Of a stretch of DNA of 64,000 nucleotides, positions 1,741-26,764 are shown one piece after another. Within the stretch, counting starts at the first letter, position 1, and the number at the start of each line of letters is the position of its first letter. Source of the DNA: Marinobacter maroccanus (lineage in GTDB: Bacteria > Pseudomonadota > Gammaproteobacteria > Pseudomonadales > Oleiphilaceae); NCBI RefSeq assembly GCF_002933275.1, contig NZ_PSSX01000001.1:434001-498000 (forward strand). Direction: 5' to 3'. A program made the position numbers and the translations under genes. The notes beneath the pieces were generated by a model. The model was given only the letters and a program-made list of their open reading frames with translations. It was not told the origin of the DNA and did no database searches.

Positions 1741-2904
1741 ATGACAGTTTCTGTCCTGGTCGTTGACGATTCAGGGTTTTTTCGCAAACGGCTGACGGAA
1801 ATCCTGACCAGCTCCGGCCAGATCAAGGTGGTTGGTGCAGCTACCAATGGTCGGGAAGGCGTGGAGCTGGCTGAGAAACTGCGTCCCGACGTGATCACCA
1901 TGGACTACGAGATGCCGGTAATGGATGGGATCTCTGCCGTGCGCGAAATCATGCGCAAGCATCCGACACCGGTGCTCATGTTCTCTTCGCTTACCTATGA
2001 GGGCGCCCGGGTGACCCTCGACGCGCTTGAGGCAGGTGCCGTCGATTTCCTGCCCAAGAATTTCGAGGAAATCGCCCGGGATAACAGTCAGCTCCAGAAA
2101 ATTCTCATCGACCGGATTCTCGACGTGGCCCGCAGCCGGCCGGGAAACCGGCCTGCGGCCCCGGCCCGCACTGAACCCTCGGCGCCCGCCCCCCGGGCAC
2201 CAGGCACCTCGGCGCGTCCCCGCCCGGACAGCACGCTGCGCCAGCGCCCAGACACACCCAGCCCTGCAGCCCCGGCCGGCTCCCCGAGTGACGCCGAAGC
2301 ACCGAGGCGTCATGCCCGCCGAGGCGCTGCCAAGCATTACGCGGTGGTTGGTATTGGTACTTCGACGGGCGGACCGGTTGCCCTGCAACGGGTATTGACT
2401 GCGTTACCCGCCGCTTTTCCGGCACCCATCGTACTGGTGCAGCATATGCCGGCCAGCTTTACGCCGGCCTTCGCCGAACGCCTCAACAAGCTCTGCCGGA
2501 TTGAAGTGCGGCAGGCGCAGGATGGCGATGTGTTGCGGCCCGGGCTTGCTTTGCTGGCACCCGGCGGCAAACAGATGATGGTCGAGAATCGCGGTGGCCA
2601 GGCCAGGATCCGTATTCTGCCGGGCGACGAGCGGCTCAATTACAAGCCTTGTGTCGATGTAACTTTCGGTTCCCTGGCCAGGAGTTTTCCGGGCAAGACG
2701 CTGGGCGTCATTCTTACTGGCATGGGCTCGGATGGCAAAGAAGGTTGCCGGATGATGAAACAGAGTGGGTCCGACATCTGGTCCCAGGATGAGAAATCCT
2801 CGGTTATCTACGGTATGCCCATGGCGGTTGCGAAGGCAGGGCTGACAGATGATGTGCTGTCGCTGGACGAAATCGGGCCGCGCCTGGTCGAAGGTGTCTG
2901 CTGA
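1741..2904 (+). CDS. cheB: CheB chemotaxis response regulator, protein-glutamate methylesterase
   Basis: Removes methyl groups from glutamates of chemoreceptors for adaptation; activated by CheA phosphorylation. 387 residues: an N-terminal receiver domain with the acidic pair D9-D10 and phospho-acceptor D55 (context MDYEMPVMDG), a long Pro/Ala/Arg linker (about 125-195), then the methylesterase domain with the catalytic Ser in GIGTSTGGP, His in QHMPASF and Asp in GMGSDGKEG. The ATG at 1741 is preceded by an AGGAG-type ribosome binding site near 1730. Its stop overlaps the motC start (TGATG), indicating translational coupling. Confidence 0.97.
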   Translation: MTVSVLVVDDSGFFRKRLTEILTSSGQIKVVGAATNGREGVELAEKLRPDVITMDYEMPVMDGISAVREIMRKHPTPVLMFSSLTYEGARVTLDALEAGAVDFLPKNFEEIARDNSQLQKILIDRILDVARSRPGNRPAAPARTEPSAPAPRAPGTSARPRPDSTLRQRPDTPSPAAPAGSPSDAEAPRRHARRGAAKHYAVVGIGTSTGGPVALQRVLTALPAAFPAPIVLVQHMPASFTPAFAERLNKLCRIEVRQAQDGDVLRPGLALLAPGGKQMMVENRGGQARIRILPGDERLNYKPCVDVTFGSLARSFPGKTLGVILTGMGSDGKEGCRMMKQSGSDIWSQDEKSSVIYGMPMAVAKAGLTDDVLSLDEIGPRLVEGVC

Positions 2905-3644
2905 TGGATATCCTGAGTCTGCTCGGGGTCATACTGGCCTTTGCCGCCATACTCGGCGGTAATCTGCTCGAAGGCGGTGCGGTTAGTTCCCTGTTCAACG
3001 GGCCGGCAGCCATTATCGTCATTGGTGGTACCCTGGCGGCGACCATTCTGCAGACCTCCTGGCCCATGCTCAAACGGGCTTTTACCCAGGTGCGTTGGGT
3101 GTTCGTCCCGCCGTTCATCAACCTGGAAGACGGTATTGGTAAGGTCATTGACTGGAGTGTCAAAGCCCGGAAGCAGGGTCTGCTGGGCCTTGAAGGCCTT
3201 GCCGAAAGAGAGCCTGAACCCTTTGCCCGCAAGGGGTTGCAACTGCTGGTGGACGGGGCCGAAACCGAGACCATCCGAGGCATCATGGAGGTGGACCTGG
3301 AGTCCCGTGAGCAGCGTGATCTGGAGTCTGCCAAAGTGTTTGAGGCCATGGGCGGTTACTCGCCGACTATCGGCATCATCGGGGCTGTGATGGGTTTGAT
3401 CCAGGTGATGACGAACCTGGAGGATCCTCAGTCCCTGGGCAGCGGGATTGCGACCGCCTTTGTGGCCACCATCTACGGTGTGGCCCTGGCCAACCTGCTG
3501 TTCTTCCCGGTCGCAAACAAGATGCGCGGTATCGTGCGGGAACGTACCCGATACGAGGACATGATGATCGATGGCATTATTGCCATTGCCGAGGGTGAAA
3601 ATCCGAAATCCATCGAATTGCGGCTGCGGGGCTTCCTGCAGTAA
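2904..3644 (+). CDS. motC: MotC flagellar motor stator (MotA/TolQ/ExbB family)
   Basis: 246-residue inner-membrane stator subunit of the second, MotC/MotD-type flagellar motor set known from Pseudomonas. Four hydrophobic segments are visible: two at the N-terminus and two around residues 145-200 (GYSPTIGIIGAVMGLIQVM and the ATIYGVALANLLFFPVANKM region), separated by a cytoplasmic domain. It sits between cheB (1-bp overlap) and motD (18 bp downstream), the same order as in Pseudomonas. A role in motility under high load is known for the family and inferred here. Confidence 0.95.
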   Translation: MDILSLLGVILAFAAILGGNLLEGGAVSSLFNGPAAIIVIGGTLAATILQTSWPMLKRAFTQVRWVFVPPFINLEDGIGKVIDWSVKARKQGLLGLEGLAEREPEPFARKGLQLLVDGAETETIRGIMEVDLESREQRDLESAKVFEAMGGYSPTIGIIGAVMGLIQVMTNLEDPQSLGSGIATAFVATIYGVALANLLFFPVANKMRGIVRERTRYEDMMIDGIIAIAEGENPKSIELRLRGFLQ

Positions 3645-7356: not shown

Positions 7357-9639
7357 ATGAAGAGAGTTTATCCGAGGGCCCTTGAGGCCCTCCGATCTGT
7401 ATCCCGCCATGATTTTGTTTCCGGTTCTGATCTGGTTCCCTCGATAACCGGCCACTCCATTCCCCGCGAAGAAACCGTCAGTCATATCCTGTCCCTGCTT
7501 CCGGAGATCGAACCGGATCAGGTGGTCATGCACGTGGGCGGCGGTTCCGGATATCTGGCTGCCGTGCTTTCAGGCCTGGCCCATCGGGTGGTCTACGTTG
7601 AAAGAAATGCGATTGTTGCCGAAGCGGCCAGAGAGCGGTTTTTCCGACTCGGTATGCACAATGTCGATGTAGTGGTTGCCAATGCCGAAGACGCTCCGGC
7701 GCCTGACCCGCTATGCGATTTTGTCCTTTGCACATCGTTTGTTAAAGAGCCCCGCAGCCTGGTTCATCTATTCCGCGAAGGCGGTCACCTGGTTTGCCTT
7801 GAGGGGCGCGCGGGACCGGTGCCGAGCCTCGCCATGTTTGTGCGCCATAACGATGGACTGGATCGGGTGCGAACCCTCGGCTGGGTCGACTTCAACCGTA
7901 ACGTGGAACAGATCCTGATCGACCAGGGCCTTGTGGATGAAAACATCCTCGTGGAGGCAAAGGCGGAGGCTGCAAAACAGAATTGTCGACTGCTTGATGT
8001 GCTTCGGCGCAAGCTGAATCTTGAAGAGATCGATCTCTATCGCTCTCTTGCGCGGCAGCGCGGTATGACCTTCACCGACGCGGACGAACTTCTTCCGGAT
8101 CTTCACCCGGCGCTGTTCCGGCGATTCTCACGCACATTTCTGGACCTTTCACGACTGATTCCAATTGCCGAAGAGGATGGCCGGATCACCGTTGTGACCG
8201 ATGATCCCGATGCCAGGACAGATCAGCTGGAGCGCCTGAGCCCGAATCAGGTGGTTGATTGCCTGCTGGTGACACCGACGGATTTTCGCCGCCTCTGGTC
8301 GGCGCTGGATCTGACCGCCAAGGGCCGGAGCTTTGCAGCGGATCACGGGTCCGGCCCGGAGCAGCAGGCCAGTTCGACCGGCACCACCGATCAATTGCTG
8401 GGCAACGATCCGAAAAACAAGCACGTCAGTCCCTACCTGGTGTCTGTCTACGAAGCCATCCTGCTGGATGCGGTGAGCGAGAAAGCCAGCGACATTCATA
8501 TCGAACAGTACGGTGACCGGATTCGCATCCGCCTGCGGGTGGATGGCGATCTCCATGATCTGCCCCAGTACCAGTTGTCGCCCCGGGAGATCAAAGGGGT
8601 GATCAACGTGATCAAGCTGCGGGCGGAACTGAACATCGCCGAGCATCGGTTGCCCCAGGGCGGACGATCCCGGCTTCAGCTTGGCGACATGGCTTACGAC
8701 CTGCGTATCCAGACCCAGCCCTCCCTGCATGGCGAGCATGCCATTGTCCGGCTGTTACCGCAGACCGGCCGCGCCATGACCATCGCCGAGCTTGGCATGT
8801 CACCGATGATCGGGGCCCGTTATCAGCGACTGCTGGATAACCCGGCCGGGCTGGTGCTGGTGGTGGGGCCGACCGGCTCCGGCAAGTCCACCACGCTGTA
8901 TGCCGGCCTGCAGACCCTGGCTGATGATGGTCGCCGAAAAGTGATTACGGTGGAAGATCCCATCGAGTACTCCATCGATAACATCCAGCAGACCAGGGTT
9001 CGGTCGGAGATTGGCTTTGGTTTCGCCGACGCCATGAGAGCGTTTGTCCGGGAAGATCCGGATGTGATTCTTGTGGGCGAGATTCGGGACCAGGAGACCG
9101 CGCTGGAGGCGATCAGGGCCTCCCAGACCGGGCACGTGGTTCTGTCTACGCTGCACTGCAACGACGCGGTCGATTCACTACAACGTCTCTACGATCTGGG
9201 TATCCACCCGAATTCCATCGCCGGTGAGCTGCTGGCCGTCATAGCCCAGCGTCTGGCCAAGCGCATCTGTAAGCATTGTAGTCAGCCCGCGGAGCCGGAT
9301 CCGGTGATTCTGTCTGAGGTGTTTCCCGATGGGCCGCCCGCGGATTTCCGCTGTTTTGAAGGCGCCGGCTGCGATAAATGCAACGGTCGTGGTACCCAGG
9401 GTCGAGTGGCAATTGTCGAGTACATGGAAGTTGATTCGGACATCCGGAACGCCATTTCCAGCCAACCGCCGATCGGGGAGTTGCGCTGGCGTGCTCTCGA
9501 TGCCGGCCTGGTGACCATGCGGGACAGCGCCCTGGATCATGTGATTGAAGGCATTATTCCGCTTTCCGAGCTGCCGCGAATTCTCCCGAGGGAACGCATG
9601 GCCCCGGAAGTTCGTGGCGGCCGCAGGAGTCAGGAATGA
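7357..9639 (+). CDS. Fusion: PCMT-like methyltransferase domain plus GspE/PilB-type ATPase
   Basis: 760 residues. The first ~185 resemble protein-L-isoaspartate O-methyltransferase: GHSIPREETVSHIL matches the PCMT entry segment and VGGGSGYLAAVL the SAM-binding loop. A GspE/PilB N-domain follows (about 187-300, QILIDQGLVDENIL). The secretion ATPase is at about 370-735: Walker A GPTGSGKST near 502, Walker B VILVGEIRDQET near 568, His-box GHVVLSTLHCNDA, and a zinc finger of two Cys-x2-Cys pairs between about 635 and 677. No pilus or secretion subunit genes are adjacent. The stop overlaps the next AAA+ gene (ATGA). Which machine it powers, and whether the methyltransferase half is active, cannot be told. 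Confidence 0.88.
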   Translation: MKRVYPRALEALRSVSRHDFVSGSDLVPSITGHSIPREETVSHILSLLPEIEPDQVVMHVGGGSGYLAAVLSGLAHRVVYVERNAIVAEAARERFFRLGMHNVDVVVANAEDAPAPDPLCDFVLCTSFVKEPRSLVHLFREGGHLVCLEGRAGPVPSLAMFVRHNDGLDRVRTLGWVDFNRNVEQILIDQGLVDENILVEAKAEAAKQNCRLLDVLRRKLNLEEIDLYRSLARQRGMTFTDADELLPDLHPALFRRFSRTFLDLSRLIPIAEEDGRITVVTDDPDARTDQLERLSPNQVVDCLLVTPTDFRRLWSALDLTAKGRSFAADHGSGPEQQASSTGTTDQLLGNDPKNKHVSPYLVSVYEAILLDAVSEKASDIHIEQYGDRIRIRLRVDGDLHDLPQYQLSPREIKGVINVIKLRAELNIAEHRLPQGGRSRLQLGDMAYDLRIQTQPSLHGEHAIVRLLPQTGRAMTIAELGMSPMIGARYQRLLDNPAGLVLVVGPTGSGKSTTLYAGLQTLADDGRRKVITVEDPIEYSIDNIQQTRVRSEIGFGFADAMRAFVREDPDVILVGEIRDQETALEAIRASQTGHVVLSTLHCNDAVDSLQRLYDLGIHPNSIAGELLAVIAQRLAKRICKHCSQPAEPDPVILSEVFPDGPPADFRCFEGAGCDKCNGRGTQGRVAIVEYMEVDSDIRNAISSQPPIGELRWRALDAGLVTMRDSALDHVIEGIIPLSELPRILPRERMAPEVRGGRRSQE

Positions 9640-10739
9640 GCAACAAGCAATCTGTTAACAAGGCGGCCCAGCGGGAGCCGGTGGAGGTGGTCTACTCTGT
9701 TGAGCTGGACAAGCTCAGGAGTATGGATCATGGCCCGGTGCCTCCCGGCTGGTTAATGTCACCCCGGGCGGTGGAAAAGTTCGTGCTGGGGGATGAGAAG
9801 CTCGGCATTGAACGGAAATTCGTTGCCGACCGGGCCATGGTAGTCCGGATTATCATTTCTCTGTGCACCAGCCGTGGCTGCCTGCTGGTCGGTGAGCCAG
9901 GTACGGCCAAATCCTGGTTGTCGGAATTGCTGGCGGCCGCCACTTCGGGCAGCTCCACGTTAACCTTGCAGGGTGGCGCGGTGAGCAGCGTCGGGCAATT
10001 GCTGTATAGCTGGAACGAAGCGGTTCTGCATACCGAGGGACCCTGTCTGAAGGCGTTGGTACCCAGCCCCTTGTTGAGAGGGATGATGGAGGGCCGGATG
10101 GTTCGGTTTGAAGAGATTGCCCGTTGCCCCCAGGCGCTGCAGGATGCGCTGCTCTCCGTGCTGTCCGACAGGGTGGTGGTGATTCCCGAGCTGGCGGGTG
10201 ACGATGGTGTGGTGCTCGCGCGTGAAGGCTTTAACGTCATCGCCACGTCCAACAGCATCGATGAGGGCGTTCATCGGATGAGCGCCGCCCTGAAGCGGCG
10301 GATGGACTTTGAGGAAATTCGCCCGATCCGCAATCTGGCTGACGAGATGGCTGTGGTTCTCCGGGAGGTTCGCCGGGCCAACAGTCGGGCCGGAATTGAG
10401 GTGGCGCTTGAAGAATCGGTCATCGAGATCCTGGTGACCATGTTCCACGAGCTGCGCAATGGCCAGACCCTCGATGGTCGCAGTACCGACCGCCTCGCCG
10501 GCTCGGCGCTGTCCACGGCGGAAGCTGTGTCGGTCGCGCATGCGGCCAGCCTCAACGCCTGGTATTACGGCGGGGGAAGCATCACGGTGGAGCAGTTGAT
10601 GCACCACATCATCGGCTCGGCCCTGAAGGATCAGCCCGAGGACCGGCGCCGGTTGCGCCATTACTTTGAAACCACCGTAGCGCCAAGGCGTGGTGACAAC
10701 TGGCAGCAGGCCTGGGCGCTGCGCTCACTGATTCACTGA
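9636..10739 (+). CDS. MoxR-like AAA+ ATPase
   Basis: 367 residues. Walker A is VGEPGTAKSWLSELL, Walker B VRFEEIARCPQALQDALLSV, and sensor 1 FNVIATSNS, followed by the helical lid (ALKRRMDFEEI). MoxR ATPases usually act with von Willebrand A partners to remodel complexes, but no such gene is nearby. It overlaps the PCMT-GspE fusion by 4 bp, implying one transcript and a common task. Its 3' end also overlaps the converging flhB-like gene by 15 bp. Confidence 0.85.
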   Translation: MSNKQSVNKAAQREPVEVVYSVELDKLRSMDHGPVPPGWLMSPRAVEKFVLGDEKLGIERKFVADRAMVVRIIISLCTSRGCLLVGEPGTAKSWLSELLAAATSGSSTLTLQGGAVSSVGQLLYSWNEAVLHTEGPCLKALVPSPLLRGMMEGRMVRFEEIARCPQALQDALLSVLSDRVVVIPELAGDDGVVLAREGFNVIATSNSIDEGVHRMSAALKRRMDFEEIRPIRNLADEMAVVLREVRRANSRAGIEVALEESVIEILVTMFHELRNGQTLDGRSTDRLAGSALSTAEAVSVAHAASLNAWYYGGGSITVEQLMHHIIGSALKDQPEDRRRLRHYFETTVAPRRGDNWQQAWALRSLIH

Positions 10740-19799: not shown

Positions 19800-21536
19800 T
19801 CAGGAGAGGCCCTTCGGGTAGAGTGGCGGCAGATCGGCGCTGGTTTGGGCCTGTCTTTGTTTCCGTATCTTCTCAAGGGCCCGCGCCAATGGCCGACCAT
19901 CCCAGGTGTCGTTCTCGTGTCCGGGCGCAAAAAGCCGGGCCTGCAGCCTTCTGAGTTCCACGGCCAGTGTCTCATCGGCGAAATGATCGACAACGTCAGA
20001 TGCAGAACGGAAGCCGTGGCCGGGCGAGTGCAGATTTGCCCACTCCACCACAAGTTCCGGTGTCACTGCTGTGCCGTCCCTCGCGGCCTTGATCAGACGG
20101 TCGAACGCGGCATCTTCATCCCGGCTGTCAGTCTGTGCCGGAGTGGCTTTCCGGCCTTTGCCTGACCACCACCATGCCACTAACGTCCCGGCCCAGAGAA
20201 TTCCCAGTGCCAGGGCGAGCCACTGCCAGGGTCCGGTTTCGTCCGATGCCGGGTTAACCGGGGGTTCAGTGGTAGCGGCATCCGGTTCCGGGCCTGACTT
20301 GCCCTGGTCGCTTTGCGAAGACGTATTAGCGGCAACGGCATTCGGGTCTTTCACCGTCAGTGTTTGCTCCGGGATCACCGCAACCCGTTCCCGGTCCGCT
20401 TCCGTATCCCACCAGGCGATGCGAATGGCGGGCAGGGTCATCTGGCCAGCCTTAACAGGCACCAGAGCCACGGACTGGTTCAGTGAGGATGTGAGGCCAG
20501 CGGGCGTGGTTTCGGTCTGGCGCTCAGGCTCTTCCGGATAACTTCTTAATCCGTCCGGTACGGTATCAGGCAACGGTGGCAGGGCCTCTGCGGGCAGGCC
20601 CGCCGCCGTCAGCTTGATTTCCCGGGTAATGTTTTCACCGGTGGCGACCTCCAGAGACGGTGGAAGCCCGGACTCGTCAAGCGCTACGCCAGTTGCCGGC
20701 AGCCAGGTTTCACCAGAGAATTGTGCAGGTACATCCTTGACCGGAACTTCAAACAACTCCTTGCTGTCCCGCAGAAAGCGGAGGCTGCCGGAAGCGTCTC
20801 TGGCCTGGCCCTCGAACCGGATCGGAGGCAGTTTCAGGGTCCCCGGACGCTGGGGGAATAGCGCGTACCGGCGTTCCACAACGCGATAGCGAACACCGTC
20901 GCGATAGCGTGAAAATTCCTGCTGCCTGCCCAAAGACTCGATAATGACATGGGGATGGGTAGGCTCGGATAGCTCTCCACGAATAAGGTTGCCCCGGAAA
21001 AAAAGCCGAACGGTCAGTATCAACTGTTCCTGCACATACACTTCATCTTTGTCGGCAGACAGCTCGATAAAGCTGTCCCGGCCAGGAGCGGTCTGATCCG
21101 GTGGTGAGCCATCCACCACCTCTACGGTAACCGGCTCTGAGACTGCCCCTTTAAAGGTGAGTGCCGGGATGGTCAGCTCGCCGGTGGTTTTCGGTGCAAG
21201 CTGGTAGGTCCAGGTAATCTCGCCCATCATCTGGCTGTTAACGGTGCGGATACTGTATTGCTGGTTCTGGGCCAGAATTTCAAAATCCGGTTCCACTTTC
21301 TCGATATCCGGCTTGGGCAGGCTGGACATGTCGAAGTCAAACAGGTTGCCCAGGTTGATATCGATCTCCATGCTGCCCTTCACGGTCAGTGTGAGGACCT
21401 CACCCTCGTAGAGGCGGGTCCGGTCCGGCTCGACCGTCAGTTGCTGTGACTGTGCCTGGGCCGGCAGCCAGATTACTGTTAAGAGTACCGTCAACAGAAA
21501 CAGAGAGACGGCGGGTGTAATCAGCCGTTTTACCAT
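19800..21536 (-). CDS. BatD-family protein
   Basis: 578 residues. An N-terminal signal peptide (about 1-28, ending LPAQAQS) is followed by repeated immunoglobulin-like beta domains, a transmembrane helix near 442-460 (WLALALGILWAGTLVAWWW), and a cytoplasmic helical tail. BatD is the oxygen-tolerance protein family of moxR-bat operons. It is the last gene of the minus-strand operon and overlaps the preceding BatB/C-like gene by 7 bp. Function is inferred from family and context. Confidence 0.88.
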   Translation of the reverse strand: MVKRLITPAVSLFLLTVLLTVIWLPAQAQSQQLTVEPDRTRLYEGEVLTLTVKGSMEIDINLGNLFDFDMSSLPKPDIEKVEPDFEILAQNQQYSIRTVNSQMMGEITWTYQLAPKTTGELTIPALTFKGAVSEPVTVEVVDGSPPDQTAPGRDSFIELSADKDEVYVQEQLILTVRLFFRGNLIRGELSEPTHPHVIIESLGRQQEFSRYRDGVRYRVVERRYALFPQRPGTLKLPPIRFEGQARDASGSLRFLRDSKELFEVPVKDVPAQFSGETWLPATGVALDESGLPPSLEVATGENITREIKLTAAGLPAEALPPLPDTVPDGLRSYPEEPERQTETTPAGLTSSLNQSVALVPVKAGQMTLPAIRIAWWDTEADRERVAVIPEQTLTVKDPNAVAANTSSQSDQGKSGPEPDAATTEPPVNPASDETGPWQWLALALGILWAGTLVAWWWSGKGRKATPAQTDSRDEDAAFDRLIKAARDGTAVTPELVVEWANLHSPGHGFRSASDVVDHFADETLAVELRRLQARLFAPGHENDTWDGRPLARALEKIRKQRQAQTSADLPPLYPKGLS

Positions 21537-23341
21537 GGTGTATCGCCCTCATCGGATGGAGTCTGGCGTTGTTGATACTGCTGCAGGAACTTGCGCTGAA
21601 GTAAGCCGCCCGGGTTATCCGGGACTCGTCTGAGCCATTGTTCCTGGCTCTGGGTCAGCGGCGTTTCAGAAATAGGGGCGGGTGCCTGCGCCTGGCCTGA
21701 CGGTGAGTCCCTCTCGCCGGATGCCTGCTCGGGATTGCCTTCCTCGCCGGGCTCCTGCTGGTTCTGCTCATCGCCTTGATTGTTCTGCTGATCTTGTTTG
21801 CCGGTCGAGGACTGGCTGTTTTCAGGGTTTTGCTGTTGATTATTCCCTGAGTTGCCGGAATTCTCGCTCTCACTGTTTCCATCCTGATTCTGACGGTTTT
21901 GTTGCTGATCGCCTTCGCCTCCCTCGTTGCTGGAGGAGTCCGACGAATCCTGCTGGCTGCCTTCCTGGCTCTGGTTCTGCTGATTCAGAAGTTCCTCGAC
22001 AATCTTCCGGTTGTGTCGGGCATCCGCCATGTCAGGCGCTTTTTCCAGGGCCGCATCGTAGGCGGCCAGAGCCTCTTCCAGTTTGCCGGCACGGGCCAGT
22101 GCGTTGCCCCGGTTATAACTGGCACGCGGGCCCTGTGACCGGGCAAACGCCTGGGCCGCGCTATCGAACTGGCCGGAACGATACAGTGCGGAACCCCGCC
22201 ATTCCGGGTCGTCCAGCTGCCGGGCGGCTGTTTCCGGGCTCTTCTCAATCAGCTCAGGGGCTCTCTGATCCTGCCGTTGCCAGAGTTCATCCCAGCTTAT
22301 GGCGGCAGCCGGCTGTGGCCAGATCGGCAACAGGATCAGGGCGAAGGCACTGAAGGCACCGCGGCGCCAGCCAAGCAAAACCAGGGGAAGGGCGAGCCAG
22401 AGCAGCCAGTAGCCGTCATCCTGCCAGCGACTGACCGTTAGGCCGTCTTCTGATGCCTGCCAGTCGTCACCGTCCTTCGGGCTCAGGTTCAGGGATTGAA
22501 CATCGGTATCATCCAGGGTCAGCTCATGGCTCTGGCCGCCGGTGCTGCGAGCGAGGTCCGCCAGCGCCTCCGGGTTGGCCCGACTGATAACAATATCGCC
22601 GTTCTCGCGGATAAATCCGCGCCGGGCCAGTGGGATGGGGCCACCTCCCTCGGTCCCGACAACGAGAGTATTAAGCGCGTAACCGGTGCCAGAAAGGGTG
22701 TCCCGGATGGTCCCGGCGTAACGATCGTTGATGTCGTCAGTGATCAGCAGAATGCGGCCTTCCCCCGGGGCCCCCTGCTGAAGTAACTCCTTTGCCCGGG
22801 CAATTGCGAGATCCGCCCGGTTCCCTGTGGCTGGCATGATGACCGGATCCAGTACATTGAGCATACCTTCAATGGTGCGGCCATCATCCGTTAATGGTGT
22901 CACCACGTGGGCGTCGCCGGAAAAGACAAGCAGGCCGGTCAGGCTGCCTTCCCGAAGCTCAAGAATGTCCCGGATTTTCCGTTTGGCCCGGGTCAGGCGA
23001 TCCGGCTCTACGTCTGTGGCCAACATGGACAGGGAGAGATCCAGTGCAATCACAAGACTGTCGCCCGGTTGTTTCAGGGGGGTGGGTGCTTCCCGCCAGG
23101 CAGGGCCGGCCAGCGCCAGGGACAGAATGATCAGGGCAGCGGAGGCCGTGGCCAGAGGCGAGTTTGTCGCTTTTCCCGAGCGGCCGTCATGACGAATCAG
23201 CGGCGCCAGCAAACGGGCCGGAATAAGCCGGGACCAGCCGCTGTCGCCCAGACGCATTTGCCGGAATGCCAGATACAGGATCGGTAACAGCAGGAGCAGC
23301 AAGAGCCAGAACGGCCGCAAAAAATGAAAGTCAGCCCACAT
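21530..23341 (-). CDS. BatB/BatC-like protein: VWA domain plus TPR
   Basis: 603 residues combining what are two genes in other species. Two N-terminal helices flank a von Willebrand A domain with MIDAS motif ALDLSLSMLATD; further helices lie near 300-330, then TPR repeats (YNRGNALARAGKLEEALAAY) and a long Gln/Asn/Ser/Gly-rich low-complexity tail. The ATG at 23341 is chosen over an upstream in-frame start because of a very strong GGAGGAGG-type site immediately before it. It overlaps the batA-like gene by 11 bp. Confidence 0.88.
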   Translation of the reverse strand: MWADFHFLRPFWLLLLLLLPILYLAFRQMRLGDSGWSRLIPARLLAPLIRHDGRSGKATNSPLATASAALIILSLALAGPAWREAPTPLKQPGDSLVIALDLSLSMLATDVEPDRLTRAKRKIRDILELREGSLTGLLVFSGDAHVVTPLTDDGRTIEGMLNVLDPVIMPATGNRADLAIARAKELLQQGAPGEGRILLITDDINDRYAGTIRDTLSGTGYALNTLVVGTEGGGPIPLARRGFIRENGDIVISRANPEALADLARSTGGQSHELTLDDTDVQSLNLSPKDGDDWQASEDGLTVSRWQDDGYWLLWLALPLVLLGWRRGAFSAFALILLPIWPQPAAAISWDELWQRQDQRAPELIEKSPETAARQLDDPEWRGSALYRSGQFDSAAQAFARSQGPRASYNRGNALARAGKLEEALAAYDAALEKAPDMADARHNRKIVEELLNQQNQSQEGSQQDSSDSSSNEGGEGDQQQNRQNQDGNSESENSGNSGNNQQQNPENSQSSTGKQDQQNNQGDEQNQQEPGEEGNPEQASGERDSPSGQAQAPAPISETPLTQSQEQWLRRVPDNPGGLLQRKFLQQYQQRQTPSDEGDTPW

Positions 23342-24362
23342 TTGGTTCCTCCTCCTTCCTGCCCCGCCGGGAGTCAGCAACAAGCTCCCGGCCGTGGCGA
23401 ACCAGGAACAAAGTCAGCCACAGGAGCACTGCCAGGCCGGCGGGCCAGACATAGAGTTCGGTCACTGGCCGATAGAACTTGCCCTCCAGCTCGATAGGTT
23501 CGAGTTGATCAATGCTCTCATAGATGAGCTCCAGCTCTGGCAGGCTGCGTGCGCGGAAATACTCTCCGCCGGTTTGCTGGGCCATCCGGGTCAGCAGGCT
23601 CTCGTCCAGATCTCTGGAGGGGTTAACCCGGCGCGAGCCCAGCAGACCGCGCTGAACCATGGATTCGGCGCCAATGCCGATGGTGTACAGTCGAATGCTG
23701 GCGGCGGCGGCGATTTCGGTGGCCTTGTCGGGGGTAATTTCGCCGGCGGTATTGGCGCCATCGGTCAGCAGGACCACAACGCGCTGGTCCTGGGGCCGGT
23801 TTCTCAGCCGCTTGGTTGCCAGACCCACCGCGTCGCCAATGGCGGTGGCGCGCCCGGCCATTCCCAGACCTGCCTCCCGCATCAGGGTTCTGACGGTTTC
23901 AAGATCAAAGGTGAGGGGAGCCTGAACGTAGGGCTCGGTACCGAACAGGATCAGACCGAGCCGGTCACCCTGGCGGCGAGAGATGAAGTCATCAAGCACC
24001 CGTTTGACCGCCTGCAGGCGATTAATGCTCCGGCCCTGAAGGACCATGTCCTGCTCATCCATGCTGGGAGAAATGTCGACAACCAGCATCAGATCGCGGC
24101 CGGAAACCGGCATCTGTACCTGCTCGCCGACATGCTGTGGCCGTGCCAATGCAATCACCAGAAGCGTCCACATGACAAACAGCAACAGTTGTTGCCAGAG
24201 TGGAACAGCATTGCCCCGACGACTCACGCCGGGCAGGTCCGACAGCCAGTGGCCAACCGGCAGCACCGGCGCGTCGACCGGTTGCCCTCCGGGCTTGCGC
24301 CATTTCAGGATCAGCGGTAACAGCACCAGAACCAGTACCCAGGGCCAGGCAAGATTCAGCAT
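23331..24362 (-). CDS. BatA-like VWA domain membrane protein
   Basis: About 343 residues: an N-terminal hydrophobic helix, a second near residue 55, a von Willebrand A domain with MIDAS motif VVDISPSMDEQD and conserved VVLLTDGANT, and a C-terminal helix (WPAGLAVLLWLTLFLV). The ATG at 24362 follows GGGAGGG and starts MLNLAWPW as in homologues. Probable client or partner of the MoxR ATPase encoded upstream. Confidence 0.9.
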   Translation of the reverse strand: MLNLAWPWVLVLVLLPLILKWRKPGGQPVDAPVLPVGHWLSDLPGVSRRGNAVPLWQQLLLFVMWTLLVIALARPQHVGEQVQMPVSGRDLMLVVDISPSMDEQDMVLQGRSINRLQAVKRVLDDFISRRQGDRLGLILFGTEPYVQAPLTFDLETVRTLMREAGLGMAGRATAIGDAVGLATKRLRNRPQDQRVVVLLTDGANTAGEITPDKATEIAAAASIRLYTIGIGAESMVQRGLLGSRRVNPSRDLDESLLTRMAQQTGGEYFRARSLPELELIYESIDQLEPIELEGKFYRPVTELYVWPAGLAVLLWLTLFLVRHGRELVADSRRGRKEEEPNVG

Positions 24363-24826
24363 TTCTGCCCTCCCAGCCACAACCGGGCGAACGCCAGTGC
24401 CTCGGTGGGCTCAGCGGAAACTTTGGGACGCCAGGCACTGGAGACCAGTGCCTCGGCAACCGGTCGGGAGGCAATCCGGTCCCTGGGGGCGGTGGCCAGC
24501 AGAAATTCCACCCAGGCATCGCCAGACAGTGCTTCCGGGTGTTGGTCCGGGTAGCGCTCACGGGCGGCCTGCTTGAGCAGCATGTTCAGTTGTACGAACC
24601 ACCAGGGCTCGGACGCCGCAATTCGCTCCAGCCTGGCAAGTTCGGTCCGTGCGGTCCGGAACCAGCGATTCCTTCTCCGTCGCCTGATCAGCAGGCAGAT
24701 GAGCGCCGCGAGGCCGGTGACGATCAGGATCGCCAGAACCCACCAACCCGGCGCCGGCGGCCAGAAACCACCGGTTTCGGGCAGGTGAATATCCCTGAGC
24801 TGGCTGAGCGGATCCTGCGGGTTCAT
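24356..24826 (-). CDS. DUF4381 membrane protein
   Basis: 156 residues. The start MNPQDPLSQLRDIHLPE is typical of DUF4381; one transmembrane helix follows (about 25-47, WWVLAILIVTGLAALICLL), then a helical cytoplasmic domain. The ATG at 24826 overlaps the stop of the DUF58 gene (ATGA), which supports this start over a longer frame. Conserved member of moxR-bat operons; molecular role unknown. Confidence 0.85.
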   Translation of the reverse strand: MNPQDPLSQLRDIHLPETGGFWPPAPGWWVLAILIVTGLAALICLLIRRRRRNRWFRTARTELARLERIAASEPWWFVQLNMLLKQAARERYPDQHPEALSGDAWVEFLLATAPRDRIASRPVAEALVSSAWRPKVSAEPTEALAFARLWLGGQKC

Positions 24827-25764
24827 CCGATCCGCCCTCCCGGCCCCAGCAGTGACTTCAGCGTCACCGCGGGATCTTCCGCAGTGGATACCTCTGCCAT
24901 GGTAACCCCGGAGGTACGAAAACATTCCTCCAATCGATGTTCATGGTTGGCGACTTTCTCATGCCAGGCCCTCTGGAAACGGGGGTTTCCGGCGTCAAAC
25001 CACACAGGGCCGTCCGGACCGGCCACCGCGAAGCGTCCGCTTTTCGGCAGCTGTTTTTCTAATGGGTCCACGATTCTCAAGGCGCTGACGGCATTATGGC
25101 GGGCCAGGGCACCGAGCAGGGTGCCCGTCTCCGGCGAGATATCCAGAAAATCGCTGATTACGAAAATTCGGCTGCCGGTATGGGCGACCCGGCGGGCCTC
25201 GGTGAGGGCCGTGTCCAGCCGGCACTGGCGGGGCTGTTCGTCCTGTGCCAGCGTGGGGTTATCCCTACGTTGCTGCACGCCCAGAGTGTCCAGGAACCGC
25301 AGCACCGACTTCTTGCGACGGGCAGGGCGGAGGACGCTCAGGGCCTCGCCATTGAAAACAATGCCGCCCACCTGGTCCCCGGACCATAACGCCAGCCAGG
25401 CCAGAATGGCGGCGATCTGGGCACAGCGAACCTGTTTGAAGGCACCGGTGCTGGCAAAGAACAGGCTGGGGCCAAGATCGCACAGGAGCAGCACGGGCCG
25501 CTCGCGCTCTTCCTCGTAGAGCTTGGTGTGTGGCGCCTGGCGCCTGGCCGTTACCCGCCAGTCGATGCTGCGAATGTCATCTCCGGGCTGGTACAGCCGG
25601 ACTTCGGCAAACGCCATACCTCGGCCGCGCTGGGGCGAGCGCTGCAAGCCCGCCTGCCGCGAACGCACCGGGCGGGCAGAGGGCAGTTTTAGTGCCCGGG
25701 CGTCTGCCTGCAGGCGGATCAGATCCGGTAGGCCGATGTGGGTTAATGCTTCGGTGTTGCCCAT
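24823..25764 (-). CDS. DUF58 domain protein
   Basis: 313 residues. The DUF58 signature is clear: YQPGDDIRSIDWRVTARRQ followed by LYEEERERPVLLLCDLGPS, with a VWA-like fold in the second half (RIFVISDFLDISPETG). DUF58 proteins are almost always encoded after moxR, as here (37 bp downstream), and are thought to act with it. No membrane segment. Confidence 0.9.
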   Translation of the reverse strand: MGNTEALTHIGLPDLIRLQADARALKLPSARPVRSRQAGLQRSPQRGRGMAFAEVRLYQPGDDIRSIDWRVTARRQAPHTKLYEEERERPVLLLCDLGPSLFFASTGAFKQVRCAQIAAILAWLALWSGDQVGGIVFNGEALSVLRPARRKKSVLRFLDTLGVQQRRDNPTLAQDEQPRQCRLDTALTEARRVAHTGSRIFVISDFLDISPETGTLLGALARHNAVSALRIVDPLEKQLPKSGRFAVAGPDGPVWFDAGNPRFQRAWHEKVANHEHRLEECFRTSGVTMAEVSTAEDPAVTLKSLLGPGGRIG

Positions 25765-25801
25765 GCCTGACGGCTCCCGTGTCTTGCTTCCGTCGATGGC
25801 T

Positions 25802-26764
25802 TCAGGCGCTCACCGGCACACGTTCGATCAGCCGCTCGATGACGGTATCGGCGGTCATGCCTTCGGCTTCTGCTTCAAACGTGAGCAGGATACGGTGGCG
25901 GAGCACGTCGAAGGCCATGGCGCGTACATCGTCCGGCGTTACGTAGTCACGGCCGTCGAGCCAGGCCAGTGCCCGTGCACAGCGGTCCAGGGCGATGGTG
26001 CCACGGGGGCTGGCGCCGAAGGCGGTCCAGCGGGCGAGTTCCGGATCCAGTGCCGCCGGATCCCGGGTTGCCAGTACCAGGGCCAGCAGGTATTGCTCAA
26101 CCGGTTCTGCCATATAGATGTTCGCGACTTCCGCCCGGGCGTCGAACACCTGGTCTGCGGTCAGGCGAAGGTCTGTTTTCGGCAGGCCATGGCGATAATC
26201 GTTCCTGGCCAGTTGCAAGATGGCCTTCTCCGCCTCCGCCGATGGGTAGTGGATGACCACGTGCATCAGAAAGCGGTCCAGCTGGGCTTCAGGTAATGGG
26301 TAGGTGCCTTCCTGCTCGATCGGGTTCTGGGTCGCCATAACCAGGAACAGCCGGTCCAGGGGGAAGGTGCGCATACCTACGCTGATCTGTCGTTCGCCCA
26401 TGGCTTCCAGAAGGGCGGACTGTACCTTGGCGGGTGCGCGGTTGATCTCATCCGCAAGCACAAGATTATGGAAGATCGGGCCGCGCTGGAACTCGAACTG
26501 CCCCGTTTCCGGCCGGTAGATTTCACTGCCGGTAACGTCGGAAGGCAGCAGGTCCGGGGTGAACTGGATTCTGTGAAAATCACCTTCGAGATGGTCGGCA
26601 AGCGCTTTTATGGCGGTGGTTTTTGCCAGTCCCGGCGCACCTTCCACCAGAAGGTGGCCGTCGGCAAGTAGCGCGATCAGCAGACGATCCACCAGCTTTT
26701 CCTGCCCGATTATCCGTTTGGCTAACTGTTCCCGTAACTCACCGAACGTATGCTGTAGCGACAT
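25802..26764 (-). CDS. MoxR-family AAA+ ATPase
   Basis: 320 residues. Walker A is the MoxR variant GAPGLAKTTAIKAL, Walker B LVLADEINRAPAKVQSALLEAM, sensor 1 FLVMATQNPIEQEG, and the lid contains ASPRGTIALDRCARALAW. First gene of the minus-strand moxR-DUF58-DUF4381-batA-batB/C-batD operon; MoxR proteins act as chaperones for VWA-containing partners. The 163-bp gap to gdhB must carry divergent promoters, but I could not assign hexamers with confidence. Confidence 0.94.
   Translation of the reverse strand: MSLQHTFGELREQLAKRIIGQEKLVDRLLIALLADGHLLVEGAPGLAKTTAIKALADHLEGDFHRIQFTPDLLPSDVTGSEIYRPETGQFEFQRGPIFHNLVLADEINRAPAKVQSALLEAMGERQISVGMRTFPLDRLFLVMATQNPIEQEGTYPLPEAQLDRFLMHVVIHYPSAEAEKAILQLARNDYRHGLPKTDLRLTADQVFDARAEVANIYMAEPVEQYLLALVLATRDPAALDPELARWTAFGASPRGTIALDRCARALAWLDGRDYVTPDDVRAMAFDVLRHRILLTFEAEAEGMTADTVIERLIERVPVSA

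Follow-up and report, generated by a model that had tools for sequence, protein, structure and literature searches.

A 64,000-nucleotide stretch of Marinobacter maroccanus DNA (the window; RefSeq assembly GCF_002933275.1, contig NZ_PSSX01000001.1, positions 434,001 to 498,000) contains two overlapping genes, both on the forward strand, that encode a methyltransferase-like domain fused to a secretion/pilus-type ATPase and a MoxR-like ATPase. The fusion gene (7357..9639, ATG start, 760 aa) specifies a domain derived from protein isoaspartate methyltransferase (PIMT), an MshEN/N1 domain and a GspE/PilB-type ATPase. Its co-inherited partner (9636..10739, ATG start, 367 aa) specifies a YehL-type MoxR AAA+ ATPase (Pfam AAA_5, 95.9 bits). 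Pfam placed PCMT on fusion residues 7-166 (43.8 bits, cut-off 20.3), MshEN on 248-318 (44.2 bits) and T2SSE on 362-739 (361.9 bits, PF00437 cut-off 24.9). Residues 183-741 aligned with positions 2-560 of the 564 in the NCBIfam PilB model, and therefore a complete motor lies behind a complete methyltransferase domain. An initial annotation of this DNA had described a 760-residue fusion of a PCMT-like domain to a GspE/PilB ATPase, overlapping an AAA+ gene by 4 bp; Pfam and NCBIfam agree on this architecture and its coordinates, and the stop of the fusion gene and start of the MoxR gene share 4 bp (ATGA at 9636).

The genes upstream and downstream of the pair are also as first described, with chemotaxis genes on one side and flagellar genes on the other. 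A DUF2802 gene, preceded by chemotaxis and motor genes, lies 26 bp upstream of the fusion, and a short convergent FlhB-type gene overlaps the end of the MoxR gene by 15 bp and is followed by a FliK-like gene. The statement that no pilin, platform or VWA partner is adjacent also held. Using the genome's own GspF, PilC, MshG and PilD or E. coli YehM, YehP and YehQ, no match was found at an E-value of 1e-5 among the other window open reading frames (ORFs), and none of the 64 ORFs called fitted a prepilin-like sequence pattern; the caller was crude and missed some real genes (e.g. the MotA gene at 2904-3644). VWA genes do occur approximately 9 kb downstream of the pair, in a canonical MoxR/DUF58/DUF4381/VWA/VWA-TPR/BatD operon on the reverse strand (19800-26764) that has its own MoxR. 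The MoxR of this operon exhibited 23% identity to that of the pair over 175 columns. A scan of the locus for promoters and terminators gave no signal above shuffled sequence.

Assembly ATPases of the GspE/PilB type are hexameric, and the motor half of the fusion carries their hallmarks. It consists of the MshEN/N1 domain (residues 183-320, 7903..8316; Pfam MshEN at 248-318 and PilB model from 183), a variable linker (approximately residues 321-360, 8317..8436), the ATPase core (residues 361-742, 8437..9582) and a C-terminal tail (9583..9636). Residue conservation was scored over 27 aligned members of the fusion family. Within the Walker A motif GPTGSGKST (residues 504-512, 8866..8892), K510 was invariant and S511 was present in 26 of 27 members. 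The residues E533, E575, H593 and H600 and all four cysteines of a zinc-type tetracysteine motif, CxxC...CxxC (residues 638-675, 9268..9381), were likewise invariant, indicating that the catalytic motifs of the motor are conserved. The core was the best conserved part of the fusion: in fusions L110-L124, identity to the window's fusion was 68-78% for the ATPase core, 33-44% for N1, 26-34% for the methyltransferase domain and 10-19% for the linker, for which the predicted local distance difference test score (pLDDT) was below 50 at residues 322-360. In the model of the full-length fusion, the ATPase was predicted with low confidence (mean pLDDT of 61), and structural matches of that model were set aside. 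The tail (LPRILPxERMAPExRG region) was strongly conserved in the nine fusions compared, with P744, R747, M748, P750, E751 and R753 invariant in a 26-row alignment, and was not seen in the genome's five other assembly ATPases; it may serve as a docking site for the MoxR protein.

In common with PilB, GspE and MshE, the fusion has the N1 domain and a T2SSE core in which Walker A, the tetracysteine motif and conserved acidic and histidine residues are found. It differs in having an extra N-terminal methyltransferase domain and C-terminal tail and no platform operon, in grouping apart and in scoring below the equivalog cut-offs for PilB (TIGR02538, 412.9 versus 675.65 bits) and GspE (TIGR02533, 402.2 versus 630.25 bits). 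A 26-row tree of assembly ATPases, used solely for the grouping of the fusions, placed 15 fusions together (support of 97/98, with long-branch warnings). The RLG-type motif, which we take to be the cyclic di-GMP (c-di-GMP)-binding motif of MshEN domains, is present in the genome's own MshE and absent from the nine fusions aligned, although c-di-GMP could be bound by another route. Other assembly ATPases of the source genome comprise GspE, PilB and TfpB (all three above their respective cut-offs; 928 bits for the separate TfpB against a cut-off of 850), an MshE-like protein, a REC-PilB fusion and two PilT-family proteins. TfpB of Acinetobacter baylyi, described in PMC8213720 as an orphan type IV pilus (T4P) extension ATPase, resembles the present motor in being a PilB-class ATPase without pilB-pilC synteny. 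The fusion is far below the TfpB cut-off (NF053534, 347.6 versus 850 bits); its PIMT-derived domain and MoxR partner set it apart further. The REC-PilB fusion (C23; 748 aa, L047/L170 5809-8055) offers a second comparison, being an ATPase of the PilB class that bears a signalling domain where the window's fusion has its methyltransferase, with no PF00482 platform found on its contig. This signalling domain is of the receiver type, histidine-kinase genes flank C23 on both sides (L047 4630-5808 and 8048-11689) and no MoxR gene was seen beside it.

The methyltransferase domain (residues 1-180, 7357..7896) retains the PIMT fold and one of its cofactor motifs. A model of residues 1-208 was predicted with a pLDDT of 87, and the best structural match was E. 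coli PIMT (3lbf; Z of 20.7, root-mean-square deviation of 2.6, 173 residues aligned), tied with CI-PIMT, a supernumerary subunit of Paracoccus complex I (8qby chain t, Z of 20.4). In the S-adenosylmethionine (SAM)-binding motif I, GGGSGY (residues 61-66, 7537..7554), G61, G63, G65 and Y66 were invariant in all 27 members, and so, as far as motif I goes, the SAM pocket whose retention among homologues had been questioned is not lost. Invariance extended to R17 and F20, and residue 82 was always acidic (21 E, 6 D). Alignment by hhalign against a profile of 26 single-domain PCMs (E of 1e-43) placed a G-x-S-I-P loop (residues 32-36, 7450..7464) on the canonical G-Q-T-I-S loop; this profile leaves out 14 of 40 rows, i.e. 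L147 (a fusion) and other long PCM rows, and the 40-row version gave the same loop alignment. G32, S34 and P36 were invariant and the whole loop was constant save for one I35V. Thus proline occupies the position of the PIMT catalytic serine in 27/27 fusion-family members, as compared to serine in 37 and threonine in two of 39 non-fusion PCM rows, and the loop threonine is replaced by an equally invariant serine (S34). Ahead of the loop, the substrate segment is shortened by a gap of 8-9 residues relative to the PCM profile. In PMC11522691, Thr60 and Ser62 of the PIMT loop are reported to bind isoaspartate, S62A to abolish activity of the Drosophila enzyme, and both CI-PIMT and RPA2580 to have lost isoaspartate-binding loop residues.

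The fusion domain therefore shares with PIMT its fold and motif I and differs in the residue and segment needed for repair. Isoaspartate repair is unlikely because the catalytic serine is replaced by proline and the substrate segment is missing, and an ordinary stand-alone PCM (L166, 218 aa) is also encoded by the source genome. Protein repair by the fusion, as first suggested for this domain, was rejected on the first two of these grounds. From its sequence, the domain is probably not a repair enzyme but a ligand-binding relic or sensor, for which SAM or S-adenosylhomocysteine (SAH) would be the first candidate.

The partner protein belongs to a recognizable MoxR lineage. It matched E. coli YehL at 48% identity across 357 aa, i.e. 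near full length, and was the sole match of its kind in the source genome at an E-value of 0.001. In its Walker A motif, GEPGTAKS (residues 86-93, 9891..9914), G86 and P88-S93 were invariant and E87 nearly so across 24 rows. The protein scored 19.2 bits, under the cut-off of 27, against bpMoxR (PF20030) of MoxR-vWA-beta-propeller systems. In a sample of 390 genomes of the order, intact pair-type MoxR proteins scored 629-673 bits as compared to 249-411 bits for YehL-like proteins linked to YehM and YehP in the same search. Homologues of both YehM and YehP adjoined the YehL-like gene in 11 of 11 further genomes of this sample by blastp of ORFs, the YehL-like MoxR itself having been missed by the ORF caller in one of them (L198). 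E. coli YehL is likewise encoded in a yehLMPQ operon, whereas the pair has no YehM, VWA (YehP) or SWIM (YehQ) neighbour and the fusion is the partner. The YehL-like relatives lie beside YehM/YehP and the pair's MoxR beside a motor, and this MoxR lineage has thus given up its usual neighbours in favour of the motor. YehM was detected in none of 22 genomes searched, of which 20 were pair carriers, in a search that had no positive control. A VWA protein could still act from elsewhere, for example from the Bat operon at 19.8-26.8 kb of the window.

The distribution of the two genes was examined across 124 Marinobacter genomes. Both genes were present in 65, the fusion only in two, the MoxR gene only in none and neither in 57 (Fisher P = 2e-33 for co-occurrence, relatedness being ignored). 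These counts derive from a methyltransferase-domain query, for which 67 genomes exceeded 100 bits and the rest were below 65, and from a MoxR alignment at an E-value of 1e-40, for which the 65 positive genomes all fell within those 67. Neither fusion-only exception is an intact fusion gene without its partner: the contig of G082 ends inside the fusion, and G099 keeps only an N-terminal remnant beside an FlhB-type gene. Partial deletions have hit both genes in L199 (G084), and the whole MoxR gene is gone from L200 (G099), which suggests joint decay of the pair. The order sample contained fusion domains above 110 bits in 12 Marinobacter and 15 other genomes, and the same 15 non-Marinobacter genomes carried the MoxR at >600 bits; four genomes at 75-80 bits (G041, G197, G207 and G253) were not counted as fusions. 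The genes were adjacent and on the same strand in 17/17 loci examined and in G841 of a class sample, although these loci are not independent, since L086 and L029 come from a single genome and several loci belong to close relatives. Protein distances of the fusion and MoxR correlated across 27 loci (r = 0.94, with none of 2000 permutations as high). The pair is thus a strictly co-inherited module. The earlier suggestion of an orphan motor with a MoxR-like ATPase coupled to it is supported, both genes being conserved and inherited together, and the fusion extends well beyond the source genome. In 64 of the 67 domain-carrying Marinobacter genomes, the domain lies inside an open frame of 756-801 aa; this arrangement is no chance event, given that the frame is kept open and that inheritance of the two genes is strictly joint.

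Wider searches with the methyltransferase alignment returned mostly ordinary PCMs, in match lists reaching down to approximately 98 bits. Besides the source genome, only G841 exceeded 200 bits among 369 genomes of the class, and only G097 (a Marinobacter) among 349 of the phylum. Outside Marinobacter, the range covers four genera in four families from the order sample, one further family from the class sample and one genome named Pseudomonas. A plasmid search (at least 5000 records) yielded no fusion among the matches listed, the ten matches listed all starting at residue 136 or later. PCMT fusions of approximately 650-735 aa in Marinobacter and other genomes were considered as further motors; the four scanned with Pfam (L039, L041, L042 and L045) proved to be PCMT-erythromycin esterases.

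Several side observations were made on these sequences. The PCMT-erythromycin-esterase fusions (L039 4521-6611, L041, L042 and L045; about 660-700 aa) are patchy in Marinobacter, and further ORFs of that length in other genomes, together with a longer ORF in G1106, have an ordinary PCM match at one end. One genome counted among the 64 (G019) has an internal in-frame TAG, and the M. flavimaris fusion (L051 and L015, one genome) has an in-frame TAG at codon 115, in the methyltransferase domain, reflecting a pseudogene or a sequencing error. The pair was found at unrelated places in M. segnicrescens (L086/L029) and Pseudomonas sp. TTU2014-080ASC (L080), whose fusions exhibited 60% and 71% identity, respectively, to that of the window. 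Horizontal transfer of the pair to these two genomes is possible.

The position between chemotaxis and flagellar genes had prompted the suggestion of a link to the polar apparatus. Comparison of loci did not support a link to the flagellar or chemotaxis apparatus; the pair may still have a more general role at the cell pole. Among 38 named loci (L049-L086), 32 had DUF2802 immediately upstream and the FlhB-type gene immediately downstream. In four others (L056, L057, L073 and L084), the pair precedes cytochrome-c maturation (ccm) genes, as it does in the window, and no DUF2802, adjacent chemotaxis, FlhB-type or FliK-like gene was seen; a distant ParA/MinD-type gene (25-31% identity to the window's ParA) lies upstream. 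Flagellar regulation is not wholly absent from these loci, as a FleQ-type regulator gene lies approximately 3.3 kb upstream of the pair in L073 and 5.5 kb upstream in L057. In the remaining two loci (L080, a Pseudomonas, and L086, M. segnicrescens), the pair is located elsewhere. Examination of 24 of the 57 pair-less Marinobacter genomes found DUF2802 adjoining the FlhB-type gene, with no pair remnant detected, in all 24; the pair therefore resembles a cassette, gained or lost at a locus that is itself intact. Neighbours in other genera bear no relation to this locus (e.g. amidase, YaeQ and acyltransferase genes), with synteny within a genus. The flagellar setting looks incidental, because the pair-less loci are intact, the pair stands at four loci where those neighbours are missing, and settings differ in other genera; for the same reasons, a role for the pair as a flagellar or chemotaxis component was rejected.

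The availability of a membrane platform was examined in carriers of the pair. PilC was present in 18/18 carriers tested, with 52-100% identity. In two genomes (G357 and G412; 99 and 98% complete), the only PF00482 protein found was the PilC of a pilB-pilC-pilD cluster. As PilC is the sole GspF-family protein found in these genomes, a platform-dependent motor would use the type IVa pilus there and not type II secretion or MSHA.

Taken together, the pair may encode an accessory T4P motor that is gated by a ligand and served by its own remodelling MoxR ATPase, a tentative reading to which a probability of about 0.37 was assigned. The fusion would be the GspE/PilB-type assembly ATPase of a two-gene accessory-motor module, and SAM, SAH or a related ligand bound to the PIMT-derived domain would set the activity or assembly state of the motor. 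MshE-like motors are described as being under c-di-GMP control, which this ligand control would replace. The YehL-type MoxR would act as the dedicated remodelling or activating partner of the motor, in place of VWA/YehM partners. Because a platform protein is missing from the module, the motor would most likely use an existing machine, most plausibly the type IVa pilus, plugging into its PilC platform in the manner of TfpB. Both elements have precedents: TfpB is an orphan extension ATPase (PMC8213720), and GvpN-like MoxR genes are linked to T4P loci of archaea (PMC4858521). Some bacteria also have several PilB-class ATPases, the role of the extra ones being still under study according to PMC11656802.

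Several results count against an accessory pilus motor. PilC was present equally in 7/7 pair-less controls, and its presence is thus permissive and not specific, because genomes without the pair have it too. Apart from the fusion itself, the 18 loci screened showed no motor, platform or prepilin-like gene next to the pair, the platform screen of these loci and the window being a blastp with the source genome's own GspF, PilC and MshG. The source genome already holds PilB, TfpB and REC-PilB, and extension ATPases are described as generally not interchangeable between machines in PMC11656802. The correlation of 0.94 between the two protein trees includes shared ancestry. Two findings argue against SAM binding. 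A second SAM contact, Asp/Glu-Gly at residues 109-110, was present in 15/27 members (Asp-Gly in nine, Glu-Gly in six), i.e. all of L110-L124, and in 0/12 of the window's own Marinobacter/Pseudomonas cluster. Arginine was present at the x position of the loop (residue 33) in 11/27 members, the window's fusion having histidine, and this position corresponds to Arg59 of CI-PIMT by our own alignment. Going by these patterns, the clades may now differ in their ligand site.

The absence of any other pilus or secretion gene beside the pair in 18 loci would fit a soluble two-ATPase machine working outside pili and secretion, for example in complex assembly or a stress response, in which the GspE fold drives no filament. 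YehL-type relatives sit in YehM/YehP operons, and a role of MoxR proteins in the maturation of diverse complexes is described in PMC3893208. Such a machine is possible but on the improbable side, as the fusion retains assembly-motor hallmarks, including the N1 domain and tetracysteine motif, and the very strong conservation of its core suggests work on a conserved large partner. Other explanations concern the N-terminal domain. A domain that still methylates proteins, though at a new target (a side chain, carboxyl or other, of the motor, pilin, platform or MoxR), would account for the invariant motif I, R17 and F20, the acidic residue 82 in all 27 members and a near-invariant G-x-S-I-P, as expected of an active-site loop. 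This activity seems unlikely, given proline at the residue that PIMTs need, loss of the Asp/Glu-Gly contact in 12/27 members, the window included, and the fast evolution of the domain (26-34% identity in L110-L124). An equally unlikely arrangement is a ligand-free structural domain, i.e. a docking or oligomerization element on the motor, as in Paracoccus complex I. CI-PIMT was tied for the best structural match and, according to PMC11522691, has lost catalysis and cofactor binding, with Arg59 obstructing the cofactor site. In both proteins the PIMT fold is reused in a larger machine and the repair residue is lost; the arginine found in 11/27 fusions is at the same loop position, and Asp/Glu-Gly is lost in 12/12 of the window's cluster. 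In the fusions, by contrast, the domain is covalently joined to the motor, SAM motif I is invariant in 27/27, S34 is kept where CI-PIMT has valine and Asp/Glu-Gly is kept in 15/27.

Two further explanations carry far less weight. Patchy presence, cassette-like insertion at intact loci and a pair that includes AAA+ ATPases would fit an anti-phage defence module; the methyltransferase region resembles PADLOC mad2 (51.4 bits) and one neighbouring ORF (L120 12961-13422) has a PLD/NgoFVII restriction-endonuclease-type domain. When the pair's proteins were scanned, PADLOC gave no clear further MADS component, and none for the MoxR, with weak mad8 and mad3 matches on the P-loop region; most of 20 scanned ORFs near pairs look ordinary metabolic or regulatory, and the position of the pair is syntenic within genus g81. 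Defence is accordingly a very improbable function. The view of the initial annotation, a protein-repair enzyme attached to a polar motor, drew on the PCMT fold and SAM motif and on a position between chemotaxis and flagellar genes that recurs in 32/38 named loci. With the serine-to-proline replacement, the missing substrate segment, an ordinary PCM in the same genome and an incidental flagellar position, this view is scarcely credible.

Each component of the pair is a member of a known family. The fusion, its pairing with MoxR and the swap of partners appear to be new as far as the literature was searched, with no report of any of them among the literature matches listed. At a single locus within one genus, some species have the pair and others clearly lack it, and natural knock-outs therefore exist. 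Two poorly understood groups (i.e. YehL-type MoxR ATPases and non-repair PIMT relatives) are tied to one defined partner, and therefore the substrate of a MoxR protein becomes directly testable. On a broader and rather doubtful proposal, these proteins would represent a class of type IV filament motor, unreported in the literature matches listed, that is set by the SAM/SAH state of the cell through a repurposed repair domain. A dedicated MoxR, having swapped its VWA partner for a motor, would load, activate or disassemble it. If this proposal is correct, Marinobacter and its relatives would possess a bacterial pilus motor under MoxR control, through which metabolism would feed directly into pilus extension.

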